Assembly (NCBI RefSeq): GCF_025602895.1
Contig: NW_026516390.1
Span: 1-64,000, forward strand
Reading direction: 5' to 3'
From: Polychytrium aggregatum
Taxonomy: Eukaryota; Chytridiomycota; Chytridiomycetes; Polychytriales
Length of the DNA stretch: 64,000 bases
The translations under genes were made by a program, and so were the position numbers. The stretch's first letter is position 1. The number at the start of each line of letters is the position of its first letter. Of this stretch, positions 4,086-40,591 are shown in pieces. The notes under the pieces were generated by a model. The model ran no database searches, was not told the DNA's origin, and worked only from the letters and a program-made list of their open reading frames with translations.

Positions 4086-5042
4086 TTACGGACGAAAACC
4101 AGGTTGCTGCTCCTTCAGCCGTATCATCGGACCGAACAAGGGCTCTCGTTGATAGAGCTCGTCGAATGTCATAAACTCCCATCCCTCGCAGTACTCGGGT
4201 TCGACCAACTGGCAGCCAGGATAGAGATATGCACGGCACAGCCGAAGAAGAAGGAGTGTCTGGTGAGTGAGTGGTGGGGATGGGATGCACCGGAGGGAAC
4301 TATTCGACAGCAGGATTCTTTGGCTCGCCTTGACAAACGAGGATCAGAATGATGATCCTCCCCCCTCGAGCAAAGGCCGACTTACCACCGGAACTGGGTT
4401 GGCATCGACACACTCTCCCCGCATGAAGATGGAAACGTAGTGACGGCGCTCCTTGGGGTTGGGATCATTGACGGCGGTCGCAAAGGTTACGTTCTCGATG
4501 GCCAAGCCAGCCTCCTCGAGCACTTCGCGGTGGGCACATTCCTCGAACGATTCACCAAACTCCAGATGACCTAGCGATGGGACACAGCGGCATTGTGAGA
4601 GACAGCTTATGGAGAATACATGGATGAGAGCAGGGCAGATGGGGCAGCGCAAATGCAAGCAAGTGTCGTCTCGACTTGGCTGCAACTGCCTCTTCTCGGC
4701 TGTGGGCCGACTGACCTCCCGGAAGTTGATATGTGCCTGGTTCGGCGGGGCGGACGGGCGAGGGTCAGTATCTCTGCGGGCAAGTCCGAGCGACAGATGC
4801 GACAGATGCGACGGATGCGACGGATGCGGTATCGATCCAGGCGATCAGAGATGCACACCGGACTCACCTGCTCCGTGGCTGCCCTTCCGCTTGCCGATCA
4901 GAATGGCACCGTCTGATTTGCGAATCACAAAGACCCCAACGCCGACCCGGACGGGAGGAAGATCCTCGGGCTTGGGTGCATGAGCTGGGGGTGCGGCTCC
5001 GCTGCTCGGTCCCTCGGTTGGACGGGCGGCGCTGTGGGTCAT
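4086..5042 (-). CDS. Nudix hydrolase, NUDT15-like
   Basis: The enzyme should hydrolyse nucleoside diphosphate-linked compounds; NUDT15 relatives clean oxidised or modified nucleotides. Four exons join in phase on the minus strand: 5042-4868, 4736-4716 (a 21-base microexon), 4570-4386 and 4208-4086, giving 167 residues against 164 in human NUDT15. The Nudix box fits completely: G66, E72, then R80-E81 and E84-E85-x-G87. The region before it (GVGVFVIR, then [11 protein letters not shown]) and the microexon peptide TYQLPG match NUDT15. The C-terminus has a WEFMTFDEL stretch like the WEWVPWEEL of the family. The chosen start at 5042 gives a low-complexity leader of about 30 residues. The frame is open further upstream, so a longer N-terminus is possible. 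Confidence 0.88.
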
Positions 5043-5371
5043 GGCGATCCAGGCTCGGGAGAAGCGATGCGGGTCTGGGAGGGCTCGGGGATGTGCGGGA
5101 GCCAAGCAGCGACCCTGAGCAGCCAGGGCGGCGATCGATGGGCGGATCGGCAGGCGCAAGAAGGCTGGCATGGCGGGGAGAGTTGGGGTCCAGCAGCGAT
5201 GTGCCGAGGGCAAGAGCGGCTTGCCGGCTGGTTGGACGCTGGTCTTGGATTCGTCCTCCATCACAAGGCGGCCCTGGTGTCTGCATTGCATTGCATCTTT
5301 GAGCTGCCCCGGCCCTGCGGACTGCCAGAGACGACCCCAGACTCCTCCTGCACCATGGCTTCGGCACCTCC

Positions 5372-5506
5372 ATGGATCAACTACAGGCCCTGAGCCTCTT
5401 TCGGGAGCTGGCCGCCGAAGGACACAGCGACAGTCAAGTCTGGCTGGGCAGGTACTCGATTTGTGGCAACGAAGTATCGGAGCACAACTCAGCGGCGTTC
5501 GAGTAG
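5372..5506 (+). CDS. Short open frame resembling one Sel1-like repeat
   Basis: The 44-residue frame contains ALSLFRELAAEGHSDSQVWLG followed by a Tyr and a Gly-containing loop. This is the pattern of a Sel1-like (TPR-type) repeat helix pair. A GT at the end of the WLG motif could be a 5' splice site, but I could not find a convincing next exon. It may be a relic of a larger Sel1-repeat gene or the first exon of a gene I cannot trace. Confidence 0.25.
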   Translation: MDQLQALSLFRELAAEGHSDSQVWLGRYSICGNEVSEHNSAAFE

Positions 5507-6023
5507 ATCAGGACAGGACAGCTGCCAACCAGAGGCACCAGCCCTCCATCGACATCCTAGCATATTTTTACAAGCCGTCCTGATGTCTCGGCTGGGTGAT
5601 CAGCGCTGACATCGTTCGCCCATCTGAGGAGTGACATGGCGGCGTCTTTGTCTGTTCCTTACCAAGTTTCCAATTCATCTTCGCTCGCCTTGTGGCCGTT
5701 GCCATCCGATTTTGCGGCGTCCGGCTGAATAACGAGACATATACGGGTTTCCCCTCAACGAGGGCTGATGAACTCCATGTTGTCCTTGCATATGAACATT
5801 GCGATGGATGCATGTATTGAGGCAACAAGGTGGTAGTAGTGGCCATGGGATATCCAGCGAATCCTGCTTCCGTGTGAGTGCACAGCCGCTGCAGCTCAAG
5901 GAATGTGGTTGAGGGAGGAGGAGGAAGTACTTTGAACCAGTTCAGGCGAGTGCTGGTCCGCCAACGTTCAATGCCCACCCCGTCTCCGCTCCAAAATCAC
6001 AGGCTTTGGTCGGGTTGGCGAAT
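5507..6023. other. Intergenic; nothing recognised
   Basis: Neither strand shows a family I recognise. The right part should hold the 3' end of the E2 gene that follows on the minus strand. Confidence 0.45.
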
Positions 6024-7460
6024 TCAGAGTCCGTTCAGGAGGGCATCCACCGCCTGCTCCTCGTTTCCATTGACCTTTCGGAGGGCGCCGATGACGTCCT
6101 TGCGACCAAAGCCCATTTCGACGAGCCGCGTGATGGCGCCGGGGTCCAGGCCGGCCATGTCCAGGGATGTGTTAGGATCGGCGTAGATTCGGGTCCACTC
6201 CCGAGCCTTGGCATTGAAAGACTCTCTGTTGCTCCGGTAGTGGTTGGCGACCTCGGCGTCCTGGGGATCGTCAGGGACCGGATCAAACAGCAGCGACTGG
6301 ATCGAGATGACCTTGTGGTCGGTATTCCGGGGTTGGTTGGAAGCGAGCGAGAACGATGGTTTCAGTAACATCGCACAGGCCTCGAACAGCCTCGTCGATC
6401 GGCGATTGGGGATGCCTCATAGACCACAACGAAATTGTGGCGTCGGCAAGGATGTAGATGGATCCCATACCACTGTCTTCAGGGTGAGTACCGGGCTCCA
6501 TGCATCCTTGAGAATGTCCAGGCAGATCGCTGAAGGGAGTAAGCGATGGGCCGATGTGAGTTGAGAATGCGGCTGAATCGGGCTTCGGATCTGCCGCGAT
6601 TCAACTTCAACATTACCTCCTGTTTGAGACGAAACATTGGGATGGTAAACCCGGGTGTCGAACTTGACCTGAGCGATTCGAGAAGGGAACCGTCTGTCAG
6701 TCGTGCATGTCTGGCGATCCCAACGACAGTGGCAGTCGGAGCAATCTGCAAGCCAGATTGAATGTGCTCTTGCGGCGAAGCGGCCAGCCCGTTTGATATG
6801 AGCCGAGACCAAGGCCATCAGAATAGCCCCCCCTCCCATCGGACGCTGTAACTGGCTCTATCAGATAAATGGGGGGGGGCCACACCGCCATCAAGCACAC
6901 CTTTGGAGCCTTGAACGGATAATCGTTTGGGAGCTCAATGTTCAGGACAAACTTGCCACCTGCCCGAACATCCGAATATGAGCGCGTTTGGACTGATATT
7001 CACCGCAGAGCGTCCGACCGATATGCCGGCGACAGCTGCGACCCACCCGATAATGCTTCAGCGCGGGAGATTCCGAAGTGCTATGAGGACTCCCGGACCC
7101 CAAGCGACGGAGGCGGCCGACTCACCTTCATATGGGGTGGCAGCAGGCCCGGGGAACGAGGCCTTGAGATGGACTGGTTGCGTTGCGTTGCGTTGCGTTG
7201 GGCAAGAATGCGACGGGAGTGTCAGCAATCGATCGCCATGATCGACGTGAATGTAGTGCGTTCGGGCAGCAGGCGGATGGAGGCAGGTGAAGCAGACGGA
7301 TGCGATCGAAGAGACCCAATCGAGGATGAGGACGGACACCTTCCACCCCCAGAACACATAACGTACGCATATTGCTCTCCTCGGGAATGAAGATTTCGAC
7401 GCCCGACGACTTGTCGAGCCGACATTGCCTGATCTCTCGCTCGATGCGGCGTGGGTCCAT
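6024..7460 (-). CDS. UBC1: Ubiquitin-conjugating enzyme E2 with C-terminal UBA domain (Ubc1/UBE2K type)
   Basis: This E2 takes ubiquitin from E1 and builds chains. Yeast Ubc1 and human UBE2K make Lys48-linked chains in proteasomal degradation. Six exons join in phase: 7460-7367, 7173-7126, 6959-6901, 6668-6617, 6529-6471 and 6311-6024, giving 199 residues against 200 in UBE2K. The UBC fold is clear: TPYEGGKF, the HPN motif at residues 76-78, and catalytic Cys87 in the AICLDILKDAW block. The DDPQDAEVANHY segment follows. Residues about 162-199 form the UBA domain (ITRLVEMGFG to the C-terminus), which binds ubiquitin. Start and end both match family borders. An intron carries a short GCGTT repeat near 7180. 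The gene is head-to-head with RIB7. Confidence 0.93.
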
Positions 7461-14878: not shown

Positions 14879-16502
<1,624 letters not shown>

Positions 16503-16872
16503 GCGACTCGGCTCGCTCTTGGACCTGGATGAAGAGGGCTAGGGGCGGACTAGCGAGTGAGCGGGGCGACGGGAATGACTGACGTTGGGAGGGGGGACAC
16601 GGAGGGTGCTGCTTCTCTCATGGGGGGTTATGCGAGCCGAAAGTGAGACACGATGGGAAGCAGCAAAGTGAATGAATGCAGCCATCCCGAGGCTAGTGTT
16701 GTTCCCTTGTTTGTTTGTTTTTTTTTGTTCTACGGGCAGCCTCGGTAACCGCCTTGGGTTGCGCGGGATTGGATGCCGCATTTGCCCGATCTCCTCGTTT
16801 CGTCACAATACACGCATAGATATCATTTGCTGTGGTCACCAGATGTGAGGTTGGGAGATGACACTTGCAAAT
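16503..16872. other. PRMT1 3' flank; no gene
   Basis: This holds the presumed PRMT1 3' untranslated region, with a GTTTGTTTGTTTT tract near 16708-16726, and then runs up to the transposon. Nothing coding was recognised. Confidence 0.55.
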
Positions 16873-16901
16873 TACAGGCAATCCAATAAAAAACGGGACA
16901 C
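16872..16901 (+). repeat. E1 left terminal inverted repeat
   Basis: The first bases are TTACAGGCAATCC, and the repeat continues to ACGGGACA. The same sequence ends E0 at 165-195 in the opposite orientation. A CCCGGGTTTTTGACC subterminal block follows and is also shared with E0. Confidence 0.88.
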
Positions 16902-16958
16902 CCGGGTTTTTGACCATTCATCGAATATTTTGTTACCCAATGTTATCGCGCGCTGGCC

Positions 16959-17890
16959 ATGACCATTCGCCACACATCCGACTTTCGCACCGCCGCATTG
17001 CGATGCTACGCCCTCATCCATAGCCTGCGTAAGGTCGCCTCCATATTCAGTGTATCCAAGAGCACCATCCATCGATGGCACCGAGGATGCAAGCTGGATG
17101 ACCCATCCCGGGTCCCAGCTCGCAGATCCACTTTCTTCGAGCAGGCATGTCCAGTCATTCGCACCCTGATTGAACAGGACCGTTCCAGACTGGTCCTGTG
17201 TTGCGATGCAAGCTCGAGTCCATCCTCCAGAGGAAAGTATCACTCTCACTCTGCCACACTGCCATCCACCGAGCAGGTCTCTCACACAAGAGGGCAACAC
17301 ACCTCTACAAGTCCAAGCGACTGGATGAGCGAGTGGCACAGTTCAGGGACCAGGTCCGCTCCATCGACCCACGACGATTCGTTTTTGTCGATGAGACAGG
17401 GATCAGGAGATCCATTTTCCCTCTCTACGGATACTCACCGAAGGGTGCTCCGCTTCGCCAGCGCAATCACATGAAACACAAGTCTGTCTCGGCTGCATTT
17501 GCCATCAACCACTCTGGTGTGCTGCATCGCATGTACATCCCCACATCATTCAAGACACACTCGATGGTCGAGTTCTTTGAGCGAGCGAGCTTCCCAGACG
17601 ACTCTGTGATTGTGATGGACAATGTCAGCATGCACAAGACAAGGGCTGTCCTGGACTGCATCGAGCGCCGAGGATGGTCAGTGATCTTCACCCCACCTGC
17701 CTCACTCGACTTCAATCCCATCGAGAACTTCTTTGGGATTGTGAAGCATCAGTACAGGAAGGCAGCAGCGCTGAATGCGTCCGAGGGGTTCAAGATCGGG
17801 ATGGTGACCCTGTTTGAGTCTGCCGTGCGGAGAGTGCTTCCAGATGTCTTCCCACGGCTGATTGAGCGAGCGATGCGCTTCTGGGGTTGA
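16959..17890 (+). pseudogene. Tc1-type DD34E transposase, broken by one frameshift
   Basis: The N-terminal part (from ATG 16959) is a helix-turn-helix DNA-binding domain: RTAALRCYALIHSLRKVASI then SKSTIHRWHRG. Around 17171-17230 the coding frame moves. From about 17198 the second frame carries the rest to a stop at 17890. The catalytic triad is complete: D in FVFVDETGIR, D in VIVMDNVSMHK, and E in FNPIENFF with 34 residues between the last two, the Tc1 spacing. Family length (about 310 residues) is kept if the two frames are joined. A 20-base GT-AG stretch at 17193-17212 would restore the frame but is too short to be a normal intron. A one-base indel is more likely, so this copy is probably not self-mobilising, barring a sequencing error or ribosomal frameshifting. 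Confidence 0.82.
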
Positions 17891-18007
17891 GTTCCCTCCA
17901 ATCAAGCCGCCGTTCTCACGTTCACATCCCTGTCTTGAACCTCTCGGCGATTTTTGAACAGGGTCGCTTCCCCAACCAGCCCGCGCAGACGGGTTCCTGC
18001 TCTCGGG

Positions 18008-18014
18008 TATAAAT
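18008..18014 (+). promoter_or_regulatory. TATA box candidate for the Fanzor gene
   Basis: TATAAAT lies 129 bases before the Fanzor ATG, in the 252-base gap after the transposase stop, and is followed by a pyrimidine-rich tract. The position fits an own promoter for the Fanzor, separate from that of the transposase. Confidence 0.5.
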
Positions 18015-18142
18015 GCCACATCTTCGTCCTGCTGCTTTCTTCCCTCATCTCGCCTTGATTTGATCATCGCGCTATTGTACGATAAAAAAAAGTCTCTGCT
18101 CTGACCAGTACCACTGGCAGGCATCCAGCATCCTCTGCCCCC

Positions 18143-20515
18143 ATGCCTCCGAAGCGTAAGGGTACCGGTGATGGCCAGCCTCGGCCACCCAGGCCCAAGA
18201 AAGCCAAGTCACAGTCGGAGCCTGTCTCTGGTTCGTATTCTGATCCCACGCATGCTTGGTCGTCTGTTGCTCCGTTGCTCACCACCACTGCTTCTGCAGA
18301 TCCAATGGATGTCGATCCCACCGAGCCTGGTCCATCTACTTCCTCGAGTACCGGCAAGCGATGTCGCAAGTGCGACGGTACCGATCACGAGCGAAGCAAC
18401 ACTAGCAAGTGTCCAAAATACCGGCCTCTCAAGAGTTCTGTCGTCCCACTCGTGGATGGAAGGTCATCCGCTCCTCAGTTCAGCTGCTTCAAGCAGACGA
18501 TGGATGGCTGTTGTCTCAATCCCGCTCTCCGCGACAAGATCCAGGCCACCGTCGAGGCCATGACCCAGATCCAGTTCGAGGCATCCAGGCTGCTCAACCT
18601 GCACATCCTCCGGTGCATCGAGCAGGATCTTCCCGTCCCTGTCATCTCCAAGACCACCCCTGCTTTCATCCGCCAATGCTTCACGATTGTCGAGGCCGAT
18701 GCCCTCTCGCCGACCGGGGACAATGAGAAATACAACGAGCATCTGGTCGCTTCCTTTCGCGACTATCAGACCACTCGGCACGCAGACCTGCCTCCGGCCC
18801 CTCGTCTGCCTGATGGTGCTCACAGTCAGCTTCTCACACTGGCTGTCAATGCCTATGCCACCAACTGCACCACCCACCTCGACCTGGCCTACTGGCGACT
18901 CCTTCGCCGCTTCTGCGCTGCCGTCTTCCCAGCCAACAAGCATAAGCACGAAGCCATCGAGGCCTGTCTTGAGCTCTTCGAGAAACCAGGGCAGACTCCA
19001 CCCAAGGCCGATCTCGAGTTCCTCTATCCCGACTTTGGTCACATCCTGGACGAGTTTCGGTACAGCAACGACCAGGACCGCTTCCGGGCCCTTCATCGCC
19101 TCTCACACCATGTGAGAATCCTCGCCCGAGACAAGATGGTCGACAATGTCCACAAGTGGATCGACTGTGACATGCCCGCCCTCCGAGTCACCGAGCTGCA
19201 GCGCCAGGCCAAGCTGGACGAGCTCACTACCCAAGGCATTCCCTCCGACGACAAGAGGTTCACCACGGCCAAGTCTGAGCTCGGCACCACCAAGGCCAAG
19301 ATCAACAAGCTGGCCGCCAGGATCAACTGGGCACTCAAGCAGCTCGCTCTCGACACTCCTCCGGCCGTGTGCACGATGGTCCCTCTATGCACTGCAAGGG
19401 CCAAGTATGTCAAGATTGACACCGTCACTCTCTGGAATCTCCTGGGTCCAAAGAAGCGCCTTGGACTCACCAGGGACAAGCTCAAGGAAGAAGGTGAGGA
19501 CGGTGTCAACAACCAGGATCGACTCTGGCGCAGCTGCTTCAAGCTGCGTAGTTCCCTCTTCCAAGAGCGGGACGTGAACAAGAAGCTGTTCAACTACGAG
19601 ATCAGCACCGATGGCATTGGATGCACCACCGGTCTCGTCAAGTTTCTGCGTCGAACCGATCGCACCGAGACCTCCGAGCCTCCTCCGACCGCCGAGCAGC
19701 GTATCCAGGAGCACATCGGCGACCCAGACCCCGACAAGACCACTTGGATTGGCATCGATCCTGGAGTCGGCTCCATCTTCACGGCGGTCATCCAAGCACC
19801 GGGCCACCAAGACGAGGTGGTCTCATTCTCCAATGGCCACTACCAGCAAATGTGTGGCCATACGTCCAACACCAAGTGGCACAACACCATGAAGTATCGA
19901 CTCAGCATCGAGACCTGGATGTCGACCACCCCCTCGCCCAAGGTGTCGTCCTCGGAGGCTTTCAAGGTCCATCTCACCCATGTCCTGCGACCGGAGCTGC
20001 GGGTGCAGCTCGACTTCCACCTTGGCAAGAAGGCCCGTCACCATCGATTCACGGGCCACAAGAGACGCCAAGTGGCCGTCGACAGGATGTGCAAGGCCGT
20101 CCTGAAGCACGCCCCGATACGGACCGATGTGGTGATCGCCTTTGGCAATGCGTCATGGCGACAAGGCAAGGGCTATGCATCCAGCCCTCGGAGGCAGCGG
20201 TTTGCTCGGTACTTTGAGCAATTCGAGCACCACCGACGCCGTCCCAATCACCATCATGGAAGCGTCAAGGTAGTCTCGACGAACGAGTTCAACACCTCGC
20301 AAGTGTGCTCCAAGTGCCTGGAGCCAGTTCGGTTGGAAGGACTCGATGCGCCCAATGTTGCGAATTCCCACTTTGTCAGGAGCTGCAAGAATCCCAGCTG
20401 CCGGACAGTGTGGAATCGCGACGTCAATGCGGCGCGCAACATGATCACAGTATGCAGGTCGATTGTGGAGATCGGAGAGCGACCGGCGGTCTTCACTCGG
20501 AGGCTGCCAAAGTGA
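18143..20515 (+). CDS. Fanzor RNA-guided endonuclease (eukaryotic TnpB homologue)
   Basis: Fanzors are eukaryotic relatives of TnpB and Cas12. They bind an RNA transcribed from the element's 3' end and cut matching DNA. This copy is one intact exon of 790 residues. The N-terminus is basic (MPPKRKGTGDG, then PPRPKKAKS), a likely nuclear signal, and is followed by a zinc-knuckle-like CRKCDGTDHERSNTSKC. A long helical region precedes the nuclease core. RuvC-I is GIDPGVGSIFTA with D539. The usual RuvC-II glutamate position holds FGNASW (G668, N669), and a glutamate appears instead at E715 in STNEFNTSQVC, the rearranged arrangement reported for Fanzors. The zinc ribbon is C722-x2-C725 with C748-x4-C753. 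RuvC-III is NRDVNAARNM with D760. Catalytic residues all look intact. The gene lies between the transposon ends, downstream of the transposase. Confidence 0.93.
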   Translation: MPPKRKGTGDGQPRPPRPKKAKSQSEPVSGSYSDPTHAWSSVAPLLTTTASADPMDVDPTEPGPSTSSSTGKRCRKCDGTDHERSNTSKCPKYRPLKSSVVPLVDGRSSAPQFSCFKQTMDGCCLNPALRDKIQATVEAMTQIQFEASRLLNLHILRCIEQDLPVPVISKTTPAFIRQCFTIVEADALSPTGDNEKYNEHLVASFRDYQTTRHADLPPAPRLPDGAHSQLLTLAVNAYATNCTTHLDLAYWRLLRRFCAAVFPANKHKHEAIEACLELFEKPGQTPPKADLEFLYPDFGHILDEFRYSNDQDRFRALHRLSHHVRILARDKMVDNVHKWIDCDMPALRVTELQRQAKLDELTTQGIPSDDKRFTTAKSELGTTKAKINKLAARINWALKQLALDTPPAVCTMVPLCTARAKYVKIDTVTLWNLLGPKKRLGLTRDKLKEEGEDGVNNQDRLWRSCFKLRSSLFQERDVNKKLFNYEISTDGIGCTTGLVKFLRRTDRTETSEPPPTAEQRIQEHIGDPDPDKTTWIGIDPGVGSIFTAVIQAPGHQDEVVSFSNGHYQQMCGHTSNTKWHNTMKYRLSIETWMSTTPSPKVSSSEAFKVHLTHVLRPELRVQLDFHLGKKARHHRFTGHKRRQVAVDRMCKAVLKHAPIRTDVVIAFGNASWRQGKGYASSPRRQRFARYFEQFEHHRRRPNHHHGSVKVVSTNEFNTSQVCSKCLEPVRLEGLDAPNVANSHFVRSCKNPSCRTVWNRDVNAARNMITVCRSIVEIGERPAVFTRRLPK

Positions 20516-20615
20516 TCTGTTTTATTTCTTGTGGCTTTGCTTGACGCAAGCACAGCACATACTACATGTTCATGGAAACGGCTATATTGTCCCGTTTTTT
20601 TCTGAATAAAGTGTA
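20447..20615 (+). ncRNA. Candidate guide (omega) RNA region at the Fanzor 3' end
   Basis: In TnpB and Fanzor systems the guide RNA overlaps the end of the nuclease gene and runs out through the right end of the element. Here the last 70 or so coding bases, the roughly 95-base 3' noncoding stretch and the right end form a block that reappears in E4 (40338-40510, minus strand) after almost everything else has been deleted. Part of it is also recognisable near 48950-49025. The boundaries are inferred from that conservation; no RNA structure was computed. If the model holds, the guide would be the flanking host sequence just beyond 20615. Confidence 0.45.
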
Positions 20616-20616
20616 A
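20587..20616 (-). repeat. E1 right terminal inverted repeat
   Basis: Read inward on the minus strand it begins TTACACTTTATTCAG and ends AACGGGACA, pairing with the left end. The last bases overlap the TA at 20614-20615. Confidence 0.85.
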
Positions 20617-21221
20617 CCATGACAGTATGTTTTCTGTGACCTGAATACACCCACCCACTCATCGCATTCATGGCCAAGCAAGTATGTCAAAGGGAGACCG
20701 AAGTGGTGATTGCCTTTGGGAATGCATCCTGGAAACAGGGGAAGGGATACGCTTCCAGTCCCAGGAGACTCAGGTTCGCCAAGTACTTTGAGCAGTTCCA
20801 CCACCACCGGAGACGACCACCAGACCGATCCGTCTCCAAGATCCATGTGTACTCGGTGAACGAGTTCAACACATCCCAGGTGTGCTCACATTGTCGGGAA
20901 TTCAAGCGACTTGAGTCACCCGAGTATCTTGATGTCGAGAAGCCACACTTTGTCCGGAGCTGTGCAAGCTGCCATACGCTGTGGGATCGAGACATCAATG
21001 CAGCCAGGAACATGATCTCGGTATGCCAGTCGATCATCGCCACAGGAGATCGACCGGGTGTATTCAAGACTGTGCTTCCCAAACCAACCAAAACCACTCG
21101 ATTGCCAACCAGGACGGGAAACAATTTCACGGCTTGCTCACTGGGGCCTACAGTCAGTCAGCGGGGTTCAGACATCTGAAGCCAGGAAGTGACTGTCCCG
21201 TTTCTTTCTGGATAGACTGTA
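20616..21221 (+). mobile_element. Truncated second Fanzor element (E2), left end missing
   Basis: Directly after E1 comes sequence that matches E3 (39935 onward): CATGACAGTATG, then CCTGAATACACCCACCCACT. It continues through a Fanzor C-terminal half to a right end reading TGTCCCGTTTCTTTCTGGAT and ending in TA at 20 kb coordinate 21220-21221. The terminal repeat of the left side is absent and is replaced by the E1 right end. It is a different subfamily from E1, because its 3' tail differs. The coding part is fused directly to the left end, so the large N-terminal part of the nuclease was lost before or during its spread. Confidence 0.8.
20670..21179 (+). pseudogene. Fanzor C-terminal fragment in E2
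   Basis: The open frame of 169 residues starts at an ATG in the element's left flank and enters the nuclease at VVIAFGNASW. It keeps the alternative glutamate (SVNEFNTSQVC), the zinc ribbon (CSHC and CASC) and RuvC-III (DRDINAARNM). It lacks the RuvC-I aspartate and the whole N-terminal recognition region, so it cannot be a full nuclease. It is about 70 percent like the E1 protein by eye. After KTVLPKPTK it continues about 30 residues further than E1 does, to a stop at 21177-21179. E3 shares this C-terminal extension. Confidence 0.85.
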
Positions 21222-40337: not shown

Positions 40338-40591
40338 TACACTTTATACATGAGTAAACGGGATATCATCTCTATCCCGCATGTCGGTGTAGTATTCGAT
40401 GGCTTGTGTCCGACTCGGTCACATACAATTCAACAGATCACCTCGACAGCCTCCGAGTGAAGACCACCGGTCCGCTCTCTGGTCACCACAATCGACCTGC
40501 ACACAGTAGTGATGGGTGTGTATTCAGGTCCTTGAAAAACAACAGTCCTGGCTCAAAACAGGGTGTCCCGTTTCGTTTTGGGAACGCTATA
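40338..40591 (-). mobile_element. Miniature Fanzor-derived transposon E4
   Basis: About 250 bases lie between TA dinucleotides at 40590-40591 and 40338-40339, read on the minus strand. The left end (GCGTTCCCAAAACGAAACGG, then GACACCC) and its flank with CCTGAATACAC match the E3 type. After about 75 bases the sequence jumps into the last Fanzor codons (CAGGTCGATTGTGG, GGTCTTCACTCGGAGGCTG) and the 3' tail of the E1 type, ending TTACACTTTATAC as in E1. It therefore looks like a hybrid of the two subfamilies with nearly all coding sequence removed. Confidence 0.85.

Follow-up and report, generated by a model that had tools for sequence, protein, structure and literature searches.

Mariner elements that join a transposase to a Fanzor1 protein have been known since 2013, as described for PGv-1 and PUl-1, which are flanked by TA duplications (Bao and Jurka 2013, PMC3627910); PGv-1 is presented there as single-copy. 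In Spu-1 of Spizellomyces punctatus, inverted repeats enclose only the gene of the Fanzor1 protein SpuFz1, and the authors found no transposase inside the repeats; conserved bases (CA) precede the left repeat, the right end holds an RNA region whose guide lies beyond the right repeat, and ghost copies without the gene occur (PMC10432273). The target-adjacent motif (TAM) is CATA for SpuFz1 and TTAAN for GtFz1 of Guillardia theta (PMC10432273; TTA-containing also according to PMC11423790), a Fanzor1 whose locus is reported without inverted repeats or transposase (PMC10432273). The TnpB systems of IS607 and IS605 likewise have a right-end RNA, a guide taken from flanking DNA and an alternative RuvC glutamate (PMC10711439). 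Here we compare these systems with a 3.7-kb element that carries a transposase gene and a Fanzor gene in the first 64,000 nucleotides of contig NW_026516390.1 of the chytrid Polychytrium aggregatum, a stretch that we call the window.

Judged from its sequence, the unit belongs to a high-copy IS630/Tc1-mariner family with a DD34E transposase of its own and a Fanzor1. It shares with PGv-1 and PUl-1 the pairing of both genes and the TA duplications but, unlike the single-copy PGv-1, belongs to a family with more than 270 matching right ends, ghosts and miniature copies. With Spu-1 it has in common the Fanzor1, the inverted repeats, the right-end RNA region, the conserved bases before the left repeat and the ghosts, whereas the transposase inside the repeats and the flanking motif TTA in place of CATA set it apart. 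From the TnpB systems it differs in the class of transposase and in the eukaryotic-type Fanzor1 with its TDG motif. A literature search over titles and abstract openings, which left many journals uncovered and is not proof of absence, found no TTA-flanked high-copy element with both genes. The features of the copy, all on the forward strand, are as follows.

16872 to 16874, forward: TTA at the left junction, comprising the TA duplication and a conserved T at position -3; predicted Fanzor target motif (flank counts)
16875 to 16900, forward: left terminal inverted repeat (comparison of the repeat arms)
16959 to 17890, forward: IS630/Tc1-type DD34E transposase gene, frame broken near 17180 in this copy (frames and profiles; type taken from copy L011)
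18143 to 20515, forward: Fanzor1 gene, 790 residues in a single frame, with D539, E715, D760 and TDG at 489-491 (frame, profiles and motifs)
20516 to 20613, forward: putative omegaRNA scaffold, non-coding, including the right terminal repeat, with two predicted hairpins in 20534-20613 (diversity and folding)
20588 to 20613, forward: right terminal inverted repeat, final base G (arm comparison and copy ends)
20614 to 20615, forward: right TA target duplication (letters read; flank table)
20616 to 20635, forward: flanking DNA that would serve as this copy's guide (by analogy with SpuFz1, PMC10432273)

The element occupies 16875-20613 between TA duplications at 16873-16874 and 20614-20615, and its imperfect terminal inverted repeats (29-nt arms at 16872-16900 and 20588-20616) are 76% complementary, so that the TA borders and paired ends noticed in a preliminary description of this DNA stand. 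A DNA search of the 64.7-Mb assembly (418 contigs, the window being bases 1-64000 of the 64,267-base contig C99) returned 55 rows, among them 30 full-length places including the window copy, besides deletion forms. The other 29 places are 95-97% identical to the window element, and the whole unit recurs with differing flanks at many of the places, which is the recurrence elsewhere that the preliminary description had proposed as a check. We fetched 39 copies (L009-L047), and in all 39 Fanzor sequence lies between the two ends; a Fanzor outside the unit, which would have spoken against that description, did not turn up. TA stands on both sides at 31 of the 32 loci that have two unique flanks; counted by distinct sites, TA borders the element on the left at 33 of 33 and on the right at 32 of 33. 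A protein search of the genome gave at least 57 Fanzor places at 94-100% identity, with 49 of 57 rows free of stops, a count that is biased because these rows are the best scores among the matches listed. The right terminal repeat is matched 278 times in the genome and a 27-nt core of the putative omegaRNA region 379 times, both with up to three mismatches. Close relatives of the element were also sought in viral contigs, and none was confirmed there. The left ends of L030 and L045 begin with GTGG in place of CAGG; at both loci GTGG also comes directly after the right TA, and such starts may mark repair-made junctions.

The preliminary description had called the transposon complete, and this did not survive: the transposase of the window copy is divided, unnoticed at that time, between frames of 171 and 139 amino acids, with residues 1-74 matching 16959-17180 and residues 75-310 matching 17180-17887 in a different frame. 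The DD34E type claimed for it does hold for the family, as seen in L011, where 34 residues separate the second D from the E; the intact L011 transposase scores 117.1 bits against NF033545 (IS630; cut-off 100) and 79.1 bits against DDE_3 (cut-off 28.6). A DDE transposase with terminal inverted repeats and TA duplications places the family in IS630/Tc1-mariner. Across 38 copies (L012 was omitted from the frame table as a near-identical duplicate), the transposase frame is kept in 22, 18 with the full 310 codons and 4 with an in-frame deletion, and both genes are intact at full length in 13. One copy with both genes intact, L018 on contig C402, shares its left flank with the window copy at 99.8% over 900 bp and its right flank at 95.6% over 610 bp, and on these flanks we interpret this copy as a second allele, or a duplicate, of the window site. 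Of the 129 transposase rows among the matches listed, 28 extend no further than residue 262 or 263, perhaps marking a spreading subfamily with a common break.

The 790-residue Fanzor proved intact in a single open frame (18143-20515), and this frame is kept in 28 of the 38 copies. Pfam detects the TNB zinc-finger domain at 38.1 bits (cut-off 26.3), and ncbifam holds no model that the protein matches above its cut-off. Bao and Jurka's Fanzor1 motif, D-X(125,275)-[TS][TS]-X2-C4 finger-X-RD, is present; the regular expression spans residues 445-760, and the spacing from the catalytic D539 to T718 lies within the range that it permits. DPG is found at 539, TDG at 489-491 and RD, a motif named for Fanzors in PMC3627910, at 759-760; features of the DPG, TDG and alternative-glutamate type are ascribed to the Fanzor lineage in PMC10711439. 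The preliminary description's claim that all catalytic residues are present holds for D539, E715 and D760, with the qualification that the glutamate sits at the alternative position: NEFNTS at 714 aligns with LDEYKTS of SpuFz1, and the apparent canonical place is taken by G668 (GNASW). Among the 28 intact copies D539 is kept in at least 28, E715 in at least 26 and D760 in at least 27; because conservation was read at fixed positions and L026 has seven extra residues, the misses are perhaps overstated. TDG is kept in 28 of 28, and its membership in the WED domain is a prediction from sequence.

Profile searches agree with the Fanzor placement made in the preliminary description. A two-sequence profile of the C-terminal part, built from the window Fanzor and a neighbouring relative and searched against the PDB, ranks SpuFz1 first (8gkh, E 1.4e-4), followed by GtFz1 (9cer, 0.011), LaTranC (0.016 and 0.019), L79 (0.13), Cas12m (0.2), PpFz1 of Parasitella (0.34) and 8hr5, labelled 'Transposase' (0.53). 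Two Fanzor1s thus lead the ranking, rather than TnpB or Cas12 proteins, and a third falls below non-Fanzors. With an 11-sequence profile, SpuFz1 is found at E 0.0023 and GtFz1 at 0.19, and in both profiles convincing alignment is confined to the C-terminal part. By these comparisons, the closest solved protein is SpuFz1 and the placement is Fanzor1.

Variants common to at least four copies indicate that both proteins were maintained. The ratio of nonsynonymous to synonymous polymorphism (pN/pS) of such variants is about 0.36 in the Fanzor gene, with a third-position bias and 0 stops against 6.3 expected, and 0.25 in the transposase gene, with 0 stops against 1.5 expected. Private variants have pN/pS values of 0.59 in the Fanzor gene (9 stops, 7.8 expected) and 0.45 in the transposase gene (1 stop, 2.8 expected). 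Purifying selection thus acted on both proteins during the spread of the family, and single copies now seem to drift. The Fanzor could instead be a decaying hitchhiker without present function, its intact frames reflecting only recent spread; the 10 of 38 copies with broken Fanzor frames and the private stops would suit this. We consider it improbable in view of the stop-free common variants with their third-position bias and of the near-complete retention of the three catalytic residues.

The flanks of the copies are asymmetric. A T precedes the left TA at 31 of 33 distinct left sites, against 180 of 1253 TA dinucleotides near the copies (binomial 3e-24), and exact left ends genome-wide are preceded by T in 174 of 180 cases and by another base in 6 (about 97% T; the count includes some sites represented by both alleles and omits end variants). 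The mirror base, an A after the right TA, is found at 6 of 33 distinct sites, and 52 of the 276 exact right ends have it (18.8%; background 174 of 1253, 13.9%). The last base of the element is G in 38 of 38 copies. Because the flanking CA of SpuFz1 belongs to its measured TAM CATA, and because the TAM of GtFz1 is TTAAN, this analogy predicts 5'-TTA as the TAM of the window Fanzor, so that an empty site would be marked and a filled site, which reads GTA, spared.

A target preference of the transposase alone, with the Fanzor a passenger that has another or no target motif, would also produce a one-sided T. The terminal repeats differ (76%), so a transposase complex could tell left from right, and miniature copies also have T before TA (7 of 8 fetched, of which two, L055 and L057, are one site). 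Target preferences of Tc1/mariner transposases are, to our knowledge, palindromic, which counts against such an origin, as does the near-background frequency of the mirror A on the right. Since the analogous CA of SpuFz1 is moreover within a measured TAM (PMC10432273), we regard the transposase-only origin as unlikely, and we prefer TTA as a Fanzor target motif.

The non-coding region between the Fanzor stop codon and the right end is 98 nt long and would yield the omegaRNA. Its per-site diversity is 0.025 overall, 0.030 without the terminal repeat and 0.012 within the repeat; for comparison, the values are 0.047 for the intergenic spacer, 0.034 for the 58-nt 5' leader, 0.029 for the transposase gene and 0.043 for Fanzor residues 121-790. 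Compared with shuffled sequences, the predicted fold has a z score of -2.9 for 20534-20613 (1 of 200 shuffles as good), -2.2 for 20516-20613 (6 of 200), -2.9 for 20480-20613 (0 of 200) and -1.75 when the flank to 20635 is included (14 of 200). In Fanzor1 systems, the RNA scaffold is counted as including the target-site duplication (PMC10711439). A search of Rfam gave one chance-level match, far under the gathering score.

Small derivatives retain this region. Two ghosts of 1110 bp (L051 and L052) still carry roughly 664 nt at the left end and 448 nt at the right. Ten short end-to-end pairs were spotted by eye among the matches listed, and the eight that we fetched (L053-L060) fall into three size classes, roughly 279, 308 and 380 bp long. 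Their left ends measure 99-105 or 209 nt and their right ends 168 or 216 nt. The right end of the miniature copies may have been kept for a long subterminal need of the transposase and not for guide-RNA coding, and in all four derivative classes read the left end, too, is represented by 99 nt or more. The left arm is, however, reduced to as little as 99 nt, whereas each of the ten derivatives read (two ghosts and eight miniature copies) has 168 nt or more of the right arm, and we think a purely subterminal need rather doubtful, though less so than the two alternatives discussed above.

We consider it probable that one explanation, drawn in part by analogy with SpuFz1, covers these observations: a TA-inserting transposase works together with an omegaRNA-guided Fanzor that cuts empty sites, into which the element is then copied back. 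The transposase moves the element into TA, as the TA duplications show, and the sequence between the Fanzor stop codon and the right terminus would provide an omegaRNA, with the right flanking DNA as its guide, as in SpuFz1. The Fanzor would recognise 5'-TTA followed by the guide, a combination confined to sites that lack the element: a donor site that it has just left, for instance, or an unoccupied sister or homologue. Cleavage there would lead to repair that restores the element from a filled copy. The filled site would escape cutting, its element end placing a G before the TA instead of a T; this composition is seen in the copies, and its role is our proposal. Maintenance in trans would extend to ghosts and miniature copies that retain the right end. 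The one-sided T, the terminal G and the retention of the right end in derivatives all fit the suggestion of the preliminary description that the nuclease helps the element persist at its donor site; its observation is partly confirmed and its interpretation partly supported. The T at -3 might even be a genomic footprint of Fanzor-dependent survival, in that the insertions put back after an excision, or copied onto the homologue, were mainly those beside a usable TTA, a step on which we lean slightly towards doubt.

Several results weigh against this explanation. The putative omegaRNA folds just modestly beat the shuffles, and the right ends of two relatives in the window fold with z scores of only -0.55 to -1.77. 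A phmmer search of the PDB with the whole protein gave no Fanzor and only LaTranC, at E 0.88. Private Fanzor variants look relaxed, and A after the right TA is slightly above background (p 0.013), so that the preference is not perfectly one-sided. Joined-flank searches for empty sites at the 32 loci left after removal of duplicates (8 and 24) scored 40 of 54 and 40 of 334 candidates, respectively, and gave no row that joins both flanks. With no empty site among the scored candidates, every T at -3 was read at an occupied target.

Rows crossing the join were obtained for L027 and L034 and rejected as empty sites: the element's left end resembles the right flank at these two loci, and the rows are their own left flank running into that end. 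A second place with the same flanks exists for 5 of 8 loci, four with a spacing of 3.5-3.8 kb, presumably occupied, and one, that of L024, with flanks about 32 kb apart.

Copies that share both flanks are mosaics. The elements in four such pairs (L009/L018, L013/L037, L014/L019 and L016/L020; flank identity 95.6-100%) differ by 2.6-4.2%, compared with a mean of 3.7% over all pairs, and 110 of 120, 121 of 157, 81 of 98 and 109 of 131 of their differences, respectively, fall at variants found in other copies. L011 and L012 differ by 0.03%. Variant linkage drops to background within about 25-40 bp. Presumed alleles differ almost as much as non-allelic copies in the stretch 60-120 nt from the flank (ratio 0.81, 8 differences) and less in the outermost 60 nt (ratio 0.25, 3 differences), a pattern that disfavours short-read polishing alone. 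The mosaics could stem from gene conversion acting often between copies, or from mixing during assembly. The pairs L010/L047 and L022/L036 have only one flank in common (right or left, 900 bp, >99.7%), which would reflect rearrangement at copies or assembly joins.

The window contains further sequences related to the element.

20616 to 21221, forward: 3' remnant of a related element directly behind the copy, with its own right repeat and a Fanzor C-terminal part 65% identical (sequence comparison)
100 to 195, reverse: left end of another copy, close to the start of the contig and likewise preceded by TTA (sequence comparison)
40338 to 40507, reverse: right-end relic of a third, more distant relative (sequence comparison)

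Just upstream of the insertion, 15391-16510 hold what we take to be a protein arginine methyltransferase-like gene. Related-element matches begin no more than 100 bp to the right of the copy at 7 of 32 loci (L009, L022, L025, L027, L032, L034 and L039) and no more than 200 bp to the left at 2 of 32. On contigs C63, C2 and C157, and less clearly on C113 and C134, transposases with 96-98% identity to that of L011 begin about 3.3 kb upstream of TNB-domain matches that, by their profile match, look like the neighbouring relative and not like the window Fanzor; positions and scores make an exchange of Fanzor modules on one transposase chassis possible. L048 contains two inverted copies, the same by eye, of a 476-residue protein (987-2417, reverse; 4877-6307, forward), with an IS607-recombinase-like N-terminus (NF033518, 46 bits, cut-off 110) and a remainder like a TnpB/Fanzor2 nuclease (NF040570, 109.8 bits, cut-off 100).

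The biological role of Fanzors is called unknown in Saito et al. (PMC10432273). Because both genes, the guide-RNA region and many insertion sites with the predicted motif share one genome, cut-and-copy-back is directly testable here, and the element is an unusually good test system for the role of Fanzor. If the T at -3 is indeed such a footprint of Fanzor-dependent survival, this family would show, in the genome of a eukaryote, signs that the persistence of insertions is decided by Fanzor cleavage, and the footprint reading would account for the guide-RNA region being kept in copies that have lost both genes.

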